Below are positions 6,560 to 37,090 of a stretch of DNA of 64,000 nt, in pieces. Source of the stretch: Pyrenula massariospora (Eukaryota > Ascomycota > Eurotiomycetes > Pyrenulales > Pyrenulaceae); NCBI GenBank assembly GCA_021030905.1, contig JAGFMI010000003.1:496001-560000 (forward strand), given 5' to 3'. A model generated the notes under the pieces. The model had not been told where the DNA came from, did no database searches, and worked only from the letters and a program-made list of their open reading frames with translations. Within the stretch, counting starts at the first letter, position 1, and every line of letters begins with the position of its first letter. Both the position numbers and the translations under genes were made by a program.

Positions 6560-8870
6560 GATGTTGATAAGATCCAATGATCAATCTGAATTTTTCAAGG
6601 AAGAGGAAGTCTTTTTGAACGTGATCCGAAACTGGTGCACAAGGTGGTTTATATAAACCTCTGATGGTCTCAACCTTCTCACGGCGATCGTTCATTGATC
6701 AGCTATTTCAATCCAGGTTTAGGGCACGCTTTTCACCGGAGCTCGGCCTGGATTGAGCAATCTATGGTCTGTGGTTGGCTGAAAGCCGCTAAGAGCAAAC
6801 ATCAAGAAGACCATTGAGATCTGCTGTTAAGGATCCCTTGCCTGGAATGGAGACTTGTCTTGAGAAAGATGGCTAACCTAGGTTGCCAAATCATGTTACC
6901 ACGAGAACCCATCTTGCGTGGACAGTGGCTAGCTGAAAGAATGTTCCGGATGACTGTGGGACTTTTCGACGAAAAGCAGCATTGGCGCAGGCAAGGAGGA
7001 CTTTTCACCTACAAAGTTCAGCCAGCCATAGAGACTTGGCGTTGGCCTAGACCAAGGGTATACGAATCATGGCAGTTGATATCGATTGATGACGCCAATC
7101 ATACCTAAGTACCCTAAGAGGGGCTCTTCATTGTGACATGACTTGGTGTGGCTGCATTCATCATGATCAGATAATTCATGGCTGTCACAGACAGGAAAGT
7201 GCCTTCCACCTCGGCCCGAAAGAAGATATATCGATAGGCACGCTGCATAGATTCGGACTATGCAGCTGAGTTAAAGTATACGCGGCTTAGACTGGCATTA
7301 GTGTCAATAACCCTCGCATTAGGCGAAGTTCGCTCGCCGCAAAAGTTTCGATGAAGTTTTCGCTGTAGATCTTGATAGCTTGGCTACGTAATGAATCGAT
7401 GGGCCTAAGACAAAGCGAGAAATTGTGCAGAACTTTTTACTATCAACGGCGCACCGTCGTGAGTCAGGGCAAGGCCGCCAGACGAAAAAAACAGGACGAA
7501 ACGGGCCAAAGGGCCTGGCACAGCTAACTGAATTAGGCCTCCGGGCGCCTCCATTCCCCATCGAAAATCCGTGTGTTTGAAATCTCACAACTCTACCAAA
7601 GTGAGCTTGAATGACGCCTAGAGCTCTGCAAAATGATTCAATCAGTAGTACTACTTGCTAATATTCTAGTAATTTTGAAATACTCTCTATGTTGTAGTTT
7701 CATATCCTTAAAATTTTGGCTTCTGGTGTCTCACTTTTTTGCACCTTTGTGCCTGCTTCAGAGCTGTGACGAAATGGATCGTCCGGTCACACCGCCTGAT
7801 GCAATTCAACAAGATCGTCAGAGCCTCTCGCATTCATCTAGCGATGCACGAGACCGCATGGCAGGATGGACGCGAAAACCGTTGTGGGCGGGCGCATTGT
7901 GTTCCAAAAAGCTTTAGCTGCTGAGGTGTGTTGAGATCGAGCTTGACACTACTTGCTTGCCATCGGCGCCTGAGCGATTGAACTTGTCCTCTGGATGGAT
8001 AAGAGCAGTATAGCTCGACTCATTAGCTGCGGAACGGACCACGGCCCGATCCTTGAGAAGCTTTCATCCGCGCTGGGTGATGTGGACATCCCATTTACAG
8101 GTCCTGGATTGTACGCGAGGCTCACCGCTCACCGAAAGTAGTCGCCGGTTGTGCTATGACGGAGCCGAAGCAATCATTCTAAGCCTATTGAAAGATAGAA
8201 GAGCACTGCTCTATGAGCTTTGTGCAAACGTAGGAATAATTATCCCTCTAAGGCATCTGAGATACTTAGCCGAGTTCCTACTGCGGTTCTTCAAACCTGT
8301 AGAGCAGAGTGAGGATTCCAGCAAGGATCCACGATTGTCCATGAACTTTAGCGGTCGATCATACACATGCTGGGCGTTTTCAGGTGCTAATGGGGTTAAG
8401 GAGGGGTGGAGGCTCTAAAGAAATTGACATACGTCACATTTTCCCCTTGACATACCCCATACCATTTAGAGCCATCGTTCTAGACCCTTACAACTGTGCT
8501 GAGCGAGTTGGCATGGGGTTGAAATCGAAGTCCGAGCCACTTTCCTTCCAAAATATTGGTAAGAGGGGTTTTCCGACTTACAGTCGTCTTGGAAACACCT
8601 ACGTATTCTCCGGCATGAATTCAGTCTCTACACCGTGGCAGCAAAATCGACACATCTAGATTCCGACCAAAAATTAGACACGCACGGGCTGTGATGCTCA
8701 AGCGACAATGGATGCTAGAAAGAGAAGAGGCTGTCGTATGATAACAGCTTTTCGAGCCAGTCTCATTGTGCAAAATATATCCAAACACTAAAATTTAGCC
8801 AGATCGCAGCTGAGTAGCTCCTAACTAACGATACAAACACGCCTAAAATTGATATGACAAGTTAGAGTCT
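6560..8870. other. Gene-free stretch, 2.3 kb
   Basis: Frames up to about 120 codons exist (for example + strand near 8053-8418) but show no motif, no conserved-looking start and no plausible splice partner. I see no repeat or RNA gene. Confidence 0.5.
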
Positions 8871-12172: not shown

Positions 12173-14067
12173 TAGGGAGTAAGATAGAAGATTGAAGACC
12201 AAAACAAATGAAAGCGAAACTTTTATCAGGGTGTCATCTACCCAGGAGCATGATAAGAGCTATTAGGGCGCAGCCTGGAGGAGCGCTCTAACAGCGAGCA
12301 ATGCAGCCAACTGGTGGAGATATCATGATGATCTGTGACGCTGGCGATCAGCCAGAGTCCAGATCTGAAGGCATTGCAAATGAACTCATAGACTGTCATT
12401 GGTCCAATCGTGCAGGTCCTTCTGCACTTCAAGGGCTAGTCATGTACGCTACACCCTGCAAGCAGTGATGAGATGATTGCTGGAGAGTGCTGTCCGCACA
12501 ATCTGTAGCGAATCAATGGCGTTCCAATTGGTGCATCGGAACTGACTAAATTGGCGACAACTTTGCCCATCACAAATCGTCAAGCGCTTGGTGCGTGGAC
12601 GACCGGATACGGGTGGACAAGATTTGTCCACAGAGGTGCGAGGTCGAATCGAGAGACCTGTGGAGCTTCAAAGAAGAATTGGATTGGATTCAATAGTGCC
12701 GCGTCCTATGCCAGTGTCCGTCGGCGTGGAGATTGGTGTCCCATTGGTTGATTGCTCGAGGAGTCAGTCCTCGATGAATTGAGCGGAGATAGCTACCACC
12801 GTGGGTCTACTCCCAGCCAGCCTCGAACACTCGCACGCGACGCTCTTTCCTATCCATTGTTAGTTTCGTTGTCATGTCGAGTCGCAAGCTCGTAGCTACG
12901 CACGCCACGAGGAGCGCCAAGGTGCTGATCTGCGTCAGGGTTACACAAACCCTGCTATGATCGCTTGCAAGTGGGCCATGCGTGCGCTAGTGGGAGCTCG
13001 ATCGGAAATGCGTGCCAGTAAGCGAACACTAGTTGAACTCTCCCCGATCAGCCACACGCGTGCAGGCTAGTCCACTTGAGACTCGCATCGTCGACTCATC
13101 GAATGGCCGCTGGCAGGGTTGTCTTGGAAATCTGCACGGGGGCATTTGATCGCCCGTCAACCTCTTTGCGGACCGGCCCTAGCGTCCAATGCGGCTTCCG
13201 TCCTTTCCGCTCTGGTGTCTTCCGCTGAGGTCGTGGCAGCCTTTGCCGCCTCTGTCTGCTGCAGAAATTTCTCTCCGAATTGGCGTCTGAGCGTTTTTGA
13301 GTAACAGACGATCGTGAGCGACACGACGATTTCCGTTCTAGTCCTGTTGTCGACCTAATGGCGCCCCAGAATCCTCTGCCGACCTCAATTGCCTCTTTCT
13401 GGTGCTAACGTGTTTCAATGGTTTCGTTGACATTCTTACTGCTCTTGCTTAGCGTCTCTATCTTCAGAGACCCACGTCTTTGGAGCCACGAGATCTTCCT
13501 GGCTCGCTCCCGGATCTGTCCGTTCCGGAATCTACTGTAGCGTCTTAGATCTTTAGTGGTGTCGATCGTTGATTCCTTTCAAATGCTTAACTGTAAGCAG
13601 AAAAAGTGCAGCAGAGCTTGACCCCTGGGAACAGCACGGCAAAAGTGAAGATCGATGGAGTGCAGGTAACCGAAATGCATAGTGTCCCAATCAGTCCCAA
13701 TACATCCTCTCCAGACTGCAACCAAACACTGTTGGCACTTCTCCATCGTCGATGACGGCACCAGTTGTCCTCTGACAGAGATGCGCCATATGCCTCGCTA
13801 GAAGAAAACGCTTTCATCGAGCCATTCAGAACACCAAGACAGCCAGGCATCCTTCCCATTGGCAGGAAGGGCTACTCCTCATTTCATGAGACTATGCAAC
13901 GGTAGCACGGCTACCCCTCAGTGATGTCCTGGTCAAGTTCCGTCATGGTCTGCGGAGCCCCTTTCTGTTCCGGTGGAGCCTGTCTCCTAGCACGGGGCTG
14001 TATACGGTAGAACAATGTTTACAGTAGAGAAAATGATTTCTGAACAGCCGTGAAATTCATAATCATC
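12173..14067. other. Gene-free stretch, 1.9 kb
   Basis: No frame longer than about 90 codons and none with a recognisable motif. It contains the upstream regions of the Ppo gene (left) and the DUF2235 gene (right). No repeat boundaries seen. Confidence 0.5.
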
Positions 14068-15876
14068 ATGTCCATCTCACTTAAATTCAATATGGACCCT
14101 TTAAAGAAGTCTGGATCTTATCCCATTCAGACCTCAGATTATACGCCAAGCTCAAATTCACAGGGGCCATCATCTCCAGCTGTAGGGAGTGGACAACCTC
14201 CTCCCACCTCTATCCGGGCCCTCAAGCACTCTGAGAAAGCAAGTAGTCAACGCCATGGCAGGACAGTTGTTATCTGCCTTGATGGTACAGGCGATCGCTT
14301 CGACAATGACAACAGCAATGTGGTGCACTTTGTGTCTTGCCTGAAGAAGCATACGCTAGGCGAGCAAGTGACCTATTACCAGTCTGGCATTGGGACTTAT
14401 GATAAGGGTGGTCTGAAGGGAGGTATCGGCGCCGCGATGGATATGGCCGTGGGAAGTGGACTTGGTATCCATGTCAAGGATGCATATCGGTTCCTCATGC
14501 AAAATTATCACGAAGGCGATAAAATATGTCTCCTTGGCTTCTCTCGAGGTGCATACACCGTCCGATGTCTGGCTGGGATGCTGCACAAAGTTGGTCTTCT
14601 GCCCGCCAGCAATGGCGCCCAAATCAATTTCGCCTATGATTTCTACAAGGACGACTCGGCAGAGGGCTTCAAGATGAGTGCTGAGTTTAAACAGACTTTT
14701 TGTACCAACGTCAATGTCTATTTTGTCGGTCTATGGGATTGTGTTGCAAGCGTAGGGTTCATTCCACGCAAGCTCCCATTCAGCAAGTCCCCGACGAACT
14801 CCATACGCTACTTTCGACACGCTATGGCGCTCAATGAGCATCGATCCAAGTTCAAGGTCTGCCAGTGGGAGCACCAAGATCCAGACGTCAAACGCTCTAA
14901 TACTGGCGATAATAGCGTCAATCGTGACAGGATTCATAATTTCTTTCGCCGCGCACGGGGAGATAAAACCACAGCAAAACTAGGCCATGGGCCCGCCATG
15001 AATGGTAAAGATGGTCTCCAAAACGGTGAGAAATTTCACGAAGGGGAAATATCCCTCGAAGATGGTGCAAAGAATCTGGAAAATGCCAAGAACCCTCTTA
15101 AGAACGGTATCTCGCACCTACTTCACGACGATGACGAGGATTCGAACGCATCACAGGAAAAGCTCGAAGCCTACTTCGAAGCACTAGATATCACCCGCAA
15201 GCGCCACCACAAAGTCGAGACCGACGCACTCGAGGTGTGGTTCATGGGCGCCCACGCCGACATCGGTGGCGGTGCCGTCGCAAACGAAACACGACACATG
15301 TTGTCGCGCATCCCCCTTCGCTGGATGATACGGCAGTGCTTTGAATGCGACACGGGCATCCTGTTCGACACCGCGAATCTCGCCGAGCAGGGTCTGGACG
15401 TCCATTCGCTCTGGCCTGTGTACCAACCGCAGTCCAAACCTTCCTGTGGCCCGCCGCCGACTTTGGTAGACAAATACGAACACAAGAAGCTTCCTCCTCT
15501 CAGATGGCGCTCGGTGTTGATGTCTGCGGAGGACGACGATAGAATCGATCAAAATAGCTCCGAAATCGACCTTGCCAAGTCGGGCATACTGTCAGAGGCG
15601 ACGGAGGACCATTTTGATGCCCTGGCGCCCCTCAACGACCAACTTGTGCAAGCCAGGGGGTGGTGGATCTTGGAGTTCTGGCCTGTCAAAGTACGTGTCT
15701 TGGCGCGAAGTGGCGTGGGATGGGAGAAAAAGGTGGGCATCAATATGGGTCGGTACCGCGCAATATGTGAGTCTGAACCGAAAATGCATTGGACGGTGCG
15801 GCGAATGATAGAAGAAGGGAGATATAATCTGCGAGGGAGAGTAGATCGAAATACCGTTTGGCAAATCTTTCCATAG
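14068..15876 (+). CDS. DUF2235 (Tle1-like alpha/beta hydrolase) protein
   Basis: Single-exon protein of 602 aa from the ATG at 14068 (a second in-frame ATG follows at 14092). DUF2235 is the catalytic fold of Tle1-type phospholipases. The N-terminal CLDGTGDRFDNDNSN (D72-G73-T74) and the nucleophile elbow G157-F-S159-R-G161 (LLGFSRGAYTVR) are typical. A downstream GAHADIGGG segment carries the probable acid of the triad. Between about residues 285 and 370 there is a lineage-type insertion rich in NG, ED and KN steps. No membrane anchor or signal is visible, so a cytosolic enzyme is likely. Fungal members are numerous and mostly uncharacterised; lipase activity is inferred from the family. Confidence 0.9.
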   Translation: MSISLKFNMDPLKKSGSYPIQTSDYTPSSNSQGPSSPAVGSGQPPPTSIRALKHSEKASSQRHGRTVVICLDGTGDRFDNDNSNVVHFVSCLKKHTLGEQVTYYQSGIGTYDKGGLKGGIGAAMDMAVGSGLGIHVKDAYRFLMQNYHEGDKICLLGFSRGAYTVRCLAGMLHKVGLLPASNGAQINFAYDFYKDDSAEGFKMSAEFKQTFCTNVNVYFVGLWDCVASVGFIPRKLPFSKSPTNSIRYFRHAMALNEHRSKFKVCQWEHQDPDVKRSNTGDNSVNRDRIHNFFRRARGDKTTAKLGHGPAMNGKDGLQNGEKFHEGEISLEDGAKNLENAKNPLKNGISHLLHDDDEDSNASQEKLEAYFEALDITRKRHHKVETDALEVWFMGAHADIGGGAVANETRHMLSRIPLRWMIRQCFECDTGILFDTANLAEQGLDVHSLWPVYQPQSKPSCGPPPTLVDKYEHKKLPPLRWRSVLMSAEDDDRIDQNSSEIDLAKSGILSEATEDHFDALAPLNDQLVQARGWWILEFWPVKVRVLARSGVGWEKKVGINMGRYRAICESEPKMHWTVRRMIEEGRYNLRGRVDRNTVWQIFP

Positions 15877-32784: not shown

Positions 32785-34971
32785 TCAAGGTGATGGTGGC
32801 TTCTCATGCACTTGGAAAGGCCCGCTCAAACGCCGGAATCTCAATAGCCTGCTCCATCGTAGTAGAGTCCATCTCTGCAAGACCAAGCCGCCGGTAAACA
32901 TTCGGCCCATCTTTGACAGGCTATAGCAGCAAGATGATGTACTTTCCATGATAATCATGATGAAGCTGAAAGTTGAGACTAGTAATAGTTGCGACATGAA
33001 GGCAGCAGACCTCCGATTGTAGAGGATCCATGTCAACGTCTAGCGCGCCAGCCTTAAAAGTTTTCCCCACCCGTTGCACGGGCCGGGACGGTGCAACGGG
33101 TGGGGAAAATTTGTAACGATTACGCGGATACCATCATTGCTCAAGCTTACCTGAACTGCTCGTACATAAGTAGCTCCACTATTCTGAAGCTCAACTGGCC
33201 AAAGCTTGCCTCCTAAAGCAAGCTCAGCTATTTCAAGCTTAGAATTTAACGGCGTCGCCTCCCACACGATCTTCGCTTGATGAACTTTGAATTTTAAGTC
33301 CGTGTCGTAGGTTTTATCGTCAAGGATATAGCAAGACCAGATATTGCTATACCAGATGCCGCCACTCACTGATATCCACGACCTTGATGGTATCCCGCTA
33401 GCCTGGAAGCGCCCCATACCTACGCCATACTCTGGCTTCCACAACAGGCCCGAGGAGAGCTGGCTCCACGACAGCCCCACGATTGACTTTTCGCCTCCAA
33501 GTAGATCCTAGAAGTGCGTGGTTAAGCCCGCCAAGTCAGGAAGCCTGTCGCTCTCAAACGTGGCATTTCGCTGCAAGTATAGCTCTGTGGGTCGTCTCCA
33601 GCAGCAATAGATTTTGCTTTGACTCTTCCCAGGCAAGTCAACAACATCTCTCCTCATTTCCGAAAAGGCCGTCTCCTTGTACATAAGTCCATCTTGCAGG
33701 CCATTTTCCGACGCAGTGATGGCTCTGCACCGCCAATGCAGCTGTTGATCTGTGAAATAAAGTACACGACAGGCAAGAAGATCTTCTTGGAATGTGCAGG
33801 CCCTAGTGTCTAGTGGGCCCATAACCTGCTGTGAGTGTAGGCCGGAGCTGCGGAGGAAAAGTTCGTCGTCTTATTTATCACCACTATCATCATCCATTTC
33901 GCAGGTAATCTGCTCGCTAGGTGTGGATGTTGGAATGAATCCTGTATCACAACGAGGAGACACGCTTGCAGCAATGACAAGAAAGGCGTCTTTGTAGACT
34001 GGACACATATTTGCTGGCTCCCACATCCGATCTTCTACGTCATCTTGGATAATGCAGAGAGTATCAATCCACAAATAGCGAATTTTGAGCCATCGCGCGA
34101 CTAGTACTGCTTGCTGAAAGGTCGGCTGGAGGTCGGACGTCTCCACATGCTGCATGTTTGAACCGATTGTAGCCTTTATTGTCTTTAAAAGAATTGATTT
34201 CTCCATCAATGGCTCAATGCGACGTATATACCTTTGACTCCGTGAGATTCCATTAGTTGAATTGAAGTGTATGATCATCTTCAGTTCCAACGTCCAGCAC
34301 GCGTGTAAGTAAGTTGGAGGCCGCGACTTTCGAACAGCAGTCGTGGTCGTTGAAGCACCTCTAGACCCAGTCGTCAACAGTAGGGAGACGCGCCATAAAA
34401 TTCTGATCAGAGCTCATCCAGAAATACATTATTGGCTCATGTTTGTGGACGTCTGCATTTGGCTTTTATCAATCAAGGATTCCCTATCCATAAAATCAAG
34501 ACAGAGCGCTTTTCTCGATATGTTTACCTTCAATGGTCAATCTGTAGATGCCGAACACCACACCGGCCTAACGAAAATCTGTGCTCGACCAAAGAGCCAC
34601 AAATCTTTGTAGACCCTTTATCAGGTCTGAAGTCATATATAGGCCGACAATCTCAATCTTATCCACAAGCTCCTCCATAAGCGGCGCTGCTGAGTCACTT
34701 CCTTCAAACTTTCCCAATCCCGCACCAGGGTCTTGCAACATACACATAAGCCGACTTCTGCACGTCTTCCGCCGAGAGAGGACCAAGAAATATCGGCGTC
34801 ACGTAGCTGGTTGGTGGACCAGGTCAAACAGGGTTTAATGAAGGAGCTGAGACGAGGATTCGGGGTATTGGCATAAGAAGACGATATAAATGCGTAGGGA
34901 GCTTCAATCATGCTCACCCGTCTCGTGCTACTTTTAGCATCCAGCACGCGTTGCACACCCTGAATACACAA
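32785..34971 (-). pseudogene. HET-domain (heterokaryon incompatibility) gene relic
   Basis: Parts of a HET protein occur in the right order on the minus strand. An N-terminal segment holds a Cys-pair element. The HET core holds RYLWIDTLCIIQDD. Next come a GPLDTRACTFQEDLLACRVLYFTDQQLHWRC block and a C-terminal GLLWKPEYGVGMGRFQASGIPSRSWISVSGG block. The family causes a cell-death reaction when incompatible fungal cells fuse. The copy is broken, with several breaks spread over its length, so it is treated as a fossil. The changes look moderate, which suggests a fairly recent loss. A 111-nt intron (33040-33150) near the 3' end contains a perfect hairpin (see the repeat at 33061-33109). Confidence 0.75.
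33061..33109. repeat. Perfect hairpin with 19-bp arms
   Basis: Arms ttttccccacccgttgcac (33061-33079) and its exact complement (33091-33109) flank an 11-nt GC-rich centre. It lies inside a GTAAGC...GCTAG intron of the HET relic. The arms look like terminal inverted repeats of a DNA transposon placed head to head, or a very small foldback element. Confidence 0.85.
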
Positions 34972-35438
34972 CTCTCATTACCCGGGGCTTTTTCTTACTT
35001 CGTAACAGAAACTCACTTTATCTGCGACCCGCCACCGAGTATTCCCTACTCTAGTGGTATGTACCTCTTGAAAATTTAATCGATCGGTAAACCACCCCCT
35101 CCCCCCTTTATCGATCGAATATTAGGATTTTGATTAGTCAGATCTTCAAGAGCCATATACCACCAAAATAAAGGGCACTGTAAAACAGATAGCATATGAT
35201 CATCCAATGGCATGTCACAACAATCAGATGGAGATCACGCAAATCGAGAAGGAATTATCAGCTGAGGAGGTGGACGGCTATATACCCCAGTTGTCGCAGG
35301 ACCACCTGTCAACCACCCATGTGGGATGACGCTGGAAAAACCTTCCCATAGAGCCAAGACTCCAACCCCTACTCGCCTCTCTCCTAATGCGTCACCTCGC
35401 GCTTCGTCGCATTCCACTCAAGCAGCCCATCTCTAGTG
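34972..35438. other. Intergenic, nothing recognised
   Basis: Separates the HET relic from the cystine-knot peptide gene. A short poly-C tract lies near 35095-35107. Confidence 0.5.
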
Positions 35439-35793
35439 CTACAAGCAAACAAAGTTGCCAGCCCCGTTCTTCACGCAGGTGTAGCTTGGGCAGCAATTTG
35501 GCTTTTCAACCCCGGGCTTGCAAGGGTGGCCATCGCCCACGCAGCGTTTCTGGGGGTCATTGGTCAGCTCTCATTCTCCTCTTGAGATTTTTCGCTTGAT
35601 CCTGGAGCAGCTGCGATAAAAGTTCAAGCTGAAAAGGGCTGTCGAAAATGATGGTTTGAGAAGTAACGGGTCCGGAATGAAATATGCTACTTACTTCAAG
35701 TTGAAACAGTTCTCCCTCCGGAGTTGGGCTGGCAAGAGCGGTCCCTGCAAGAGAGAGGGCGCCAAGGAGGGTAATCAAGTTTGGCAAGTACAT
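35439..35793 (-). CDS. Secreted pre-pro-peptide with cystine-knot (knottin-like) core
   Basis: Two exons, 35695-35793 and 35439-35549, give 69 aa. The 145-nt intron has donor GTAAGT, a CTGAC branch-like site and acceptor CCCCCAG ten nt later. Residues 1-21 are a signal peptide (MYLPNLITLLGALSLAGTALA). Residues 22-35 are a short acidic propeptide ending in Lys34-Arg35, a Kex2 site. The predicted mature peptide is 34 residues, starting with Cys36. Its six Cys (36, 43, 52, 53, 58, 68) follow C-x6-C-x8-CC-x4-C-x9-C, the inhibitor cystine-knot spacing. An alternative acceptor at 35568 also keeps the frame and adds six residues before the Lys-Arg. The mature part fits an antimicrobial, effector or defence peptide; none is proven. 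Exon 2 is tiny and lacks its own ATG, so ordinary gene calling would miss it. Confidence 0.8.
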
Positions 35794-36634
35794 GTTGGCT
35801 GAGTGTTGCTAATGACGCAAGTCGAAGAGAGAGCTTCTTTTTAAGGTATATGACTTCAATGATCTGTATAGACTTTGAGGTGTTCTGACTTCAAAGATGG
35901 TGGCAAGAAGAGCTTCTTATATGTTGCGGAGGACGGTCGCTGCAGCCCACAGCTGAACGTGCGCCAAAAGCAAGCTTCAAGAGCGGTGAAGAGTCTGAGA
36001 CAAATGACTCGAGTTGATGCGATATTTAGCTGGAGTACGAGCTGTAGAAGAGCGTCTCGGCGACCATCCTGCAACTTTCGAATCCTGCATTACGGCGGCA
36101 GATATCTTCAATGTTGAGGAGGATCACAGTTGCAAATATCATACATAAAGTGATGTATTCTGCACATTCTTGGGGGGGGGTATCTGACACTACTGGAGTG
36201 TAACACAGCATATCAAGGCCCACAGAAGGATCTTACGAGGGGGTTTTCTCGTGTATGACCAGAAGCAGTGGCCTCTTCTAGTTTCAGTAATTCCGATGCC
36301 CCGATTTCACGTAAATTAAAGTTCAAGTTTCTGTCGCTTACTCTTGTACAGCAGGGCCGGCTTCTAACGGATATATCAATGTGGTTTGTGTACGACTCCA
36401 TCTAATACGCGTGTTGTGTAGACAAGAAAAGTGTGCCGAGTCACGTGACTAGCTGAGAGAAGGACGGCAACTAAGATCACGTGATGAGCACATGGGAAAA
36501 TTATGATTTTAATACTAATCCTGAACAGCTTTGGTGCGATAAATTATTTTGACTTAAAACTCCATTCTAAAATATTAGTTTATTATATAACTATAATAAA
36601 AAGGGCCGTGACGGAGAGAAGGATTCGGGCAATG
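35794..36634. other. Intergenic with two CACGTG palindromes and AT-rich DNA
   Basis: Upstream of the peptide gene. Contains gtcacgtgac at 36440-36449 and atcacgtgat at 36476-36485, then an A/T-rich stretch at about 36490-36600. Confidence 0.5.
36440..36485. promoter_or_regulatory. Pair of TCACGTGA-type E-box palindromes
   Basis: Two 10-bp palindromes centred on CACGTG, 36 bp apart. CACGTG is the bHLH core (Cbf1-like in yeasts). They lie about 650 bp upstream of the peptide gene start and just downstream of the 109-aa frame, so their target is unclear. Confidence 0.35.
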
Positions 36635-36964: not shown

Positions 36965-37027
36965 CCGTCTCCCCCTCGTGACTATTAGGAAGGCCTGCTA
37001 TCTCAGGACCGCGTAGACGGGCCCCCG

Positions 37028-37090
37028 GACGGGCTCTCGGGGAGCGGGTGGACGGGCTTTCGGGGAGCGGGTTAGACGGGCTCTCGTGAA
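37028..37090 (+). repeat. Tandem repeat, unit about 23 bp, 2.7 copies
   Basis: Units begin gacgggctctcggggagcgg at 37028, gacgggctttcggggagcgg at 37051 and gacgggctctcg at 37075. The second unit differs by one C-to-T change in its shared part. Confidence 0.75.

Follow-up and report, generated by a model that had tools for sequence, protein, structure and literature searches.

Does a 355-bp segment of the Pyrenula massariospora genome encode a secreted peptide with an inhibitor cystine knot (ICK)? The segment lies in a 64-kb stretch of DNA that was analysed as a whole and is called the window here. A sequence-only reading of this stretch had proposed that the segment holds a hidden two-exon gene for a pre-pro-peptide of ICK type. 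Two paralogs built on the same plan support this proposal, while the knot itself is predicted from the cysteines.

Structure of the gene

The two-exon reading is confirmed, with exons, intron and stop codon as claimed, on the minus strand, which had not been named before. The gene, referred to as copy A, comprises the following features:

35439..35793, minus strand: complete gene (355 bp, start to stop codon), one of three family members and named copy A
35695..35793, minus strand: exon 1, 33 codons, encoding a signal peptide (residues ~1-21, ending ALA, called by a hydropathy rule only) and a propeptide
35550..35694, minus strand: intron, 145 nt, GTAAGT...CCCCCAG, its position matching that of the paralog introns
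35563..35567, minus strand: branch-like CTGAC at a distance of 14 nt from the acceptor; copies B and C have CTAAC
35442..35549, minus strand: exon 2, 36 codons, without an ATG of its own
35544..35549, minus strand: Lys-Arg of LEKR, a Kex2-type site, kept in copy B and replaced by LEKC in copy C
35442..35543, minus strand: predicted mature peptide, 34 residues, loops 6-8-0-4-9, with CX3GX2C
35439..35441, minus strand: stop codon TAG

The start codon at 35793 stands in the context CAGCCAACATG. The donor GTAAGT is found at 35694 and the acceptor CCCCCAG ends at 35550; together with CTGAC they provide the donor, branch-like site and pyrimidine-rich acceptor that had been described, at a position matched in the paralogs. 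The precursor has 69 residues and is composed, from N to C-terminal, of a signal-like N-terminus, a short propeptide, LEKR, and a 34-residue peptide whose translation bears out the expected pattern C-x6-C-x8-CC-x4-C-x9-C. The net charge of the pro-region is about -1.5, KR included. For the oxidised mature peptides, monoisotopic [M+H]+ values of 3490.49 (copy A) and 3691.60 (copy B) are predicted.

A script lists five donor/acceptor pairs for the ATG at 35793 under a filter of at least 5 cysteines or more than 85 residues, and all five give the same Cys-rich end, so that the Cys-rich exon alone does not fix the splice sites. GTAAGT with CCCCCAG is the pair that matches the donors and acceptors of both paralogs, and it is in frame. 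One alternative, the acceptor at 35568, was compared by eye and rejected: it precedes the branch motif, and the corresponding site of copy C does not keep the frame.

Two paralogs share the same plan

The genome from which the window comes (37.8 Mb, 33 contigs) was searched for relatives of copy A. Exon 1 finds two further loci, C33:791404-791481 on the minus strand (E 5.6e-4, 65% identity over residues 1-26) and C2:877804-877881 on the plus strand (E 1.6e-3, 62% identity over residues 1-26). A DNA search recovers both the C33 and the C2 locus, with E-values of 2.8e-22 and 2.8e-13. They contain the following copies:

L010 5482-5096, minus strand: copy B (C33), 79 residues, intron of 147 nt, donor GTAGAC
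L011 4805-5191 (C2:877804-878190 in C2 contig coordinates), plus strand: copy C (C2), 80 residues, intron of 144 nt, donor GTAAGC

Both paralogs have GCTAAC branch motifs and CAG/AAA acceptors at the same codon boundary as copy A. Across the three copies the branch motif reads GCTRAC, and the introns, of 145, 147 and 144 nt, lie at one position. Gaps between the copies measure 24 and 6 nt in exon 1 and 3, 3 and 6 nt in exon 2, all multiples of three, while several of the gaps in the intron and flanks are 1-2 nt long.

In exon 2, six of six cysteines are kept in every pair of copies, the remaining residues being identical at 9/29, 9/30 and 10/30 positions. If identities were distributed at random, the probability of keeping all six cysteines would be 0.0026-0.0041 per pair, the pairs not being independent. 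Nucleotide identities along the unit, for the pairs A-B, A-C and B-C respectively, are:

250 nt upstream: 0.58, 0.62, 0.51
exon 1: 0.69, 0.70, 0.72
intron: 0.61, 0.64, 0.59
exon 2: 0.58, 0.54, 0.54
260 nt downstream: 0.65, 0.65, 0.64

Cysteines aside, conservation in exon 2 falls below that of exon 1, the intron and the downstream flank in all three pairs, and is about as low as in the 250 nt upstream. Fixed cysteines in an otherwise diverged mature exon are a pattern common in toxin and effector families. Positive selection is unsupported: NG86 dN/dS is 0.32-0.52 in exon 2, where it rests on dS values of 1.1-2.0, that is above 1, and 0.28-0.48 in exon 1.

In copy C, LEKC replaces LEKR: the Arg is lost, a seventh Cys is present, and the place has none of KR, RR or LxxR. 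This copy may be a differently processed variant or a decaying one. No fourth member came from searches of the same genome that used exon 2 of all three copies or exon 1 of B; such searches score the best candidates only, and more distant members could be missed, since neither exon 2 of A nor that of B recovered the two known sisters. When 9.9 kb around each copy were compared, only pieces of a unit of ~0.9 kb (~36162-35249 in the window) were shared. The copies therefore go back to duplication either of this unit or of longer segments that have since eroded.

Comparison with chance expectation

A scanner was set to report a signal-like N-terminus followed by a GT-AG intron with a branch motif, or by no intron, and a C-terminal ending with six cysteines. 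Copy A is its sole match in the 64-kb window, and the reversed window gives zero. Among 600 order-3 Markov sequences of 64 kb, none combined ICK spacing with a dibasic site, 2 had ICK spacing without a dibasic site, 1 had a loose six-Cys pattern with such a site and 22 a loose pattern without one; a first run (n=60) had given 2 loose matches. A sample of real DNA, 20 stretches of 10 kb all taken from contig C27 (200 kb), contained 0 ICK matches and 1 loose six-Cys match, and gave no scanner matches when read backwards. Because the scanner rules were drawn up with the gene already in view, and the run of 600 used a wider donor rule than that of 60, the simulation provides a bound only and no clean P value. 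The paralogs are stronger evidence for the gene than these counts.

Synonymous codon choice agrees with that of six long ORFs of the window in copies A (P 0.0022) and B (P 0.0002), and not in copy C (P 0.18). A codon score that includes amino-acid composition gives no coding signal, fractions of 0.74, 0.60 and 0.87 of random stop-free pieces scoring as high, and is uninformative on coding.

As a separate observation, stretch L037 (C27:2160001-2170000) carries on its plus strand, at about base 7646, a 53-residue candidate whose start is signal-like and whose last 40 residues include six cysteines. Its first Cys falls inside the signal-like part, and its spacing is not that of an ICK.

Conserved flanking elements

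Two elements outside the coding parts are conserved in the three copies:

35916..35923, minus strand: TATA-like CATATAAG, ~125 nt upstream of the ATG, in a conserved island (22/30 columns identical in three copies)
35244..35330, minus strand: block of conserved 3' flank at +463 to +549 relative to the ATG (as many as 23/30 columns identical in three copies)

When the three copies are profiled along the whole unit, 18-22 of 30 columns are identical at the start codon and signal peptide, and fewer, 15-18, near the branch site and acceptor. The 3' block is as conserved as the signal peptide, has the core AGGTGG...CCACCT, and has counterparts in L010 and L011. A DNA search of the genome (E <= 1e-3) finds the 3' flank only beside copies A, B and C.

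Two candidate explanations of this block were considered. An RNA structure is not supported: folded alone, the block gave z values against shuffles of 0.85, 0.83 and -1.12, two less stable and one slightly more. In the consensus fold 6/50 pairs were changed on both sides, and the covariation term, calculated from three sequences only, was slightly unfavourable (+0.24). A small ORF on the opposite strand was rejected by eye, its frame being broken by single-base gaps between the copies. Rfam gave no match in 35000-36300 up to E 1.

Cysteine spacing and predicted fold

The published ICK consensus, CX3-7CX3-8CX0-7CX1-6CX3-13C as given in PMC4881942 (a narrower form is given in PMC4942781), accommodates copies A and C, both 6-8-0-4-9, in C behind the extra Cys. 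Copy B (6-9-0-4-8) is one residue above the consensus in loop 2. U5-Sth1a is also one residue over in loop 2, yet its authors count it as an ICK. All three copies fit the wider knottin spacing quoted in PMC6889267. CX3GX2C is present between Cys1 and Cys2 in all of them, a motif that is common, according to PMC4881942, among the theraphosid and ctenid toxins of spiders.

A profile built from the three sequences matched 11 PDB sequences at E <= 10, the best being pi-hexatoxin-Hi1a (E 0.0034), cyriotoxin-1a (0.011), Mu-theraphotoxin-Hhn2b (0.012) and hainantoxin-I (0.018). Most of the 11 matches cover part of the profile only, that of pi-hexatoxin about one half. Spider-toxin names are borne by 8/11, whose folds we take to be ICK. 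Searched alone against the PDB, copy A had its top E-value with an unrelated Ig-like protein (E 0.0055), and its theraphotoxin match was at E 0.27. Significant homology to the theraphosid spider toxin family was not reached, the best theraphotoxin E-value being the 0.012 of the three-sequence profile.

Pfam matched copy B to Conotoxin (E 7.9e-4, 20.8 bits where the cut-off is 25.1) and copy C to Toxin_12 (E 0.023) and Toxin_7 (E 0.23), all three below the cut-off. It gave no match for copy A up to E 10 and none for the isolated mature parts of A and B. In summary, the putative knot is well supported by the spacing together with weak profile matches, the disulfides being predicted, and an ICK fold of the mature peptide appears very probable.

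Predicted processing

The Kex2 Lys-Arg site that had been claimed is indeed found, as LEKR, and is kept in copy B. LEKR fits the extended Kex2 motif LxKR, described in PMC8528282 with Leu at P4, Lys at P2 and Arg at P1. Copies A and B combine a signal peptide with a pro-domain ending in KR/RR or LxxR, which is the criterion for Kex2 pro-domain-processed (K2PP) fungal effectors, and copy C does not. The K2PP search rule of PMC8528282 further asks for cleavage within the first half of the precursor; in A (69 residues) KR stands at 34-35 and in B (79 residues) at 42-43, at the midpoint or slightly beyond it. With high confidence, the precursor is predicted to be secreted and cut by Kex2.

Database searches and genomic setting

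Compared with 5.8 billion proteins by a search that detects only relatives sharing exact 5-residue words, the 69-residue precursor gave 1 candidate and none at E <= 10, and the alignment of the three precursors gave 39 candidates and no relative. The neighbouring methyltransferase served as a control: it matches 145 proteins at E <= 1e-20, with many named fungal proteins among the matches listed, hence fungal proteins are present in the searched database. Its top match has 59% identity over the whole query, and the second, from Pyrenula ochraceoflavens (Eurotiomycetes), 69% over 67%; other named matches among those listed are from Neodothiora (55%), Xylographa (45-54%) and Colletotrichum (31-36%, best two). 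A text-based rather than sequence-based search of the literature, in main texts, found no report of this LEKR/C six-Cys family, and a search on knottins with lichens or Eurotiomycetes returned nothing relevant among the matches listed. The family is apparently an orphan.

The gene had been placed beside a HET relic and a repeat-rich region. A HET-domain fragment is indeed present, and may be a relic or one exon:

33871-34377, minus strand: open frame with a HET-domain fragment (Pfam HET, profile 26-111 of 146, E 2.1e-17)

The repeat-rich setting does not hold well: with Tandem Repeats Finder the whole window yields four arrays, of which a single one is nearby (37027-37086). Around copies B and C, 12 ORFs of at least 120 aa were listed and 10 were scanned against domain profiles; those recognised are a GDSL lipase, a ULD/MIT protein and a fungal rhodopsin domain in two pieces.

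Three further features of the window were recorded. On the plus strand, 14050-15876 encodes a protein that strongly matches the T6SS Tle1-like phospholipase catalytic domain (PF09994, E 2.3e-80), here in a fungal genome; 33044-33126 is an inverted repeat of two 41-nt arms, 80% complementary and 1 nt apart; and 1406-1430 is a run of 25 G.

Interpretation and alternatives

The locus is almost certainly a real gene, and the combination of gene, processing and fold, role excluded, is likely as a whole. As its signal peptide suggests, the precursor would enter the secretory pathway, and, judging by the motif, a Kex2-like protease in the Golgi would cleave it after LEKR. The spacing of the cysteines and their conservation among paralogs suggest that they would pair 1-4, 2-5 and 3-6, giving a very stable 34-residue miniprotein. 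Outside the cell this peptide would most likely be a protease-resistant binder that blocks a protein of host tissue, of a symbiont or of a competitor, and its variable loops would decide the target. We lean, with moderate confidence, towards a putative role between species, as effector, antimicrobial or inhibitor, over a housekeeping function.

A secreted, Kex2-processed, Cys-rich peptide could also act inside the fungal colony, in self-signalling, in the wall or in development, a proposal that concerns the role only and is compatible with the gene and the fold. Kex2-type processing is common to fungal pheromones and other self-acting peptides, and a partner organism is named by none of the results. 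Nevertheless, a mature part diverged around fixed cysteines and the lack of homologs are more effector- or toxin-like than expected of a conserved signal. Each precursor of this family carries a single peptide unit, whereas many pheromone precursors carry more than one; we regard a colony role as unlikely. Quite improbable, in turn, is a six-Cys secreted peptide with another fold, for instance defensin-like or with non-knotted disulfides. The adjacent CC at positions 3-4, the loop lengths (with loop 2 of B one over) and CX3GX2C fit ICKs, and the spider-toxin names of 8/11 profile matches, presumably of ICK fold, point the same way, even though the knottin matches of the family are weak and mostly partial. 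A precedent for such a fold exists in Venturia families 12, 24 and 35, SCOPe knottins that are defensin-like and unknotted in the AlphaFold models described in PMC9632046.

That the family is decaying, and the locus a relic that has lost expression or processing, would agree with copy C, which has neither the KR site nor codon bias, and with the HET-domain fragment ~1 kb away. Against this, nothing of the kind is lost in copies A and B, where the start context, the splice signals, the reading frame, the cysteines, the KR site and the codon bias all persist, and the TATA-like island is conserved; general decay is very unlikely. The idea that chance ORF pieces mimic a gene could draw on the uninformative composition-based coding score and the absence of a database homolog; it is opposed by paralogs with the same plan and by 0/600 simulated 64-kb sequences with ICK spacing and a dibasic site. 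The paralogs leave this last idea with hardly any probability and appear close to refuting it.

A more far-reaching scenario can be imagined, in which an orphan family has converged in detail on spider gating-modifier toxins (CX3GX2C, CxPG, loops 1, 3 and 4), directs that surface at membrane proteins of animals or other eukaryotes, evolves in a venom-like way with a fixed signal exon and cysteines and a fast mature exon, and has its copies co-regulated by the 3' element. We consider this full combination highly doubtful.

A secreted Kex2-cut peptide of probable ICK fold thus remains our reading. The family is new, and its kind, the fungal knottins, is already known and growing; knowledge of the ICK fold itself is unchanged. 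Its resemblance to spider toxins in sequence motifs is unusually clear and most likely convergent. Ordinary gene finding could easily miss such genes, we infer, because the mature peptide lies alone in a 36-codon exon without an ATG. The plan of a short signal exon, an intron of ~145 nt, LEKR/C and a six-Cys exon provides a template for mining fungal genomes, and on this family the convergence of knot peptides between fungi and arachnids can be tested.

Comparison with known systems

The earlier statement that such knots are rarely reported in fungi was too strong, in view of the Fungi1 matches and of the Venturia, Beauveria, Emergomyces and rust knottins. According to PMC4503680, the Fungi1 knottin profile has 121 non-redundant matches in Histoplasma transcriptomes, 41 fungal genomes and a curated set; the group includes Cladosporium fulvum Avr9 and is expanded in Ajellomycetaceae. 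Predicted knottins are described in Venturia (PMC9632046), Beauveria (PMC12099005) and Emergomyces (PMC12705615), and the rust knottin MLP124266 was solved by NMR (PMC6889267).

Like the present family, the Fungi1, Avr9 and Histoplasma knottins, as described in PMC4503680, are small and secreted, with six C-terminal cysteines in knottin spacing. The Histoplasma knottins are likewise multigene, and were recognised through small transcripts (PMC4503680). The present family has LEKR directly before Cys1 and a CX3GX2C first loop; it is set beside Fungi1 by description only. The Melampsora protein MLP124266, a homolog of Melampsora lini AvrP4, is likewise secreted, with a conserved signal peptide and six C-terminal Cys, and its knot is 1-4, 2-5, 3-6 (PMC6889267), the pairing we predict here. 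It differs in being a 69-residue mature protein of a rust fungus with a flexible N-terminal half and eight cysteines, as described in the same source, and it is absent from the PDB matches of the three-sequence profile.

The K2PP effectors described in PMC8528282 resemble copies A and B in signal peptide, short pro-region and LxKR cleavage site; K2PP is a processing class and not a sequence family, and the site here is mid-precursor, not clearly in the first half. Spider-toxin-like secreted proteins of Beauveria bassiana also have predicted knottin folds; that claim is model-based and concerns an entomopathogen, and the present family is likened to it by description (PMC12099005). In the aligned stretches, hainantoxin-I, Mu-theraphotoxin-Hhn2b and cyriotoxin-1a share loops 1, 3 and 4 (6, 0 and 4) with the present family, as well as CX3GX2C, CxPG after Cys2 and the CC pair. 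These theraphosid-type toxins differ in loop 2, which has 6 residues against 8-9 here, come from a different kingdom and match at E 0.011-0.018 only; the shared motifs most likely reflect convergence.
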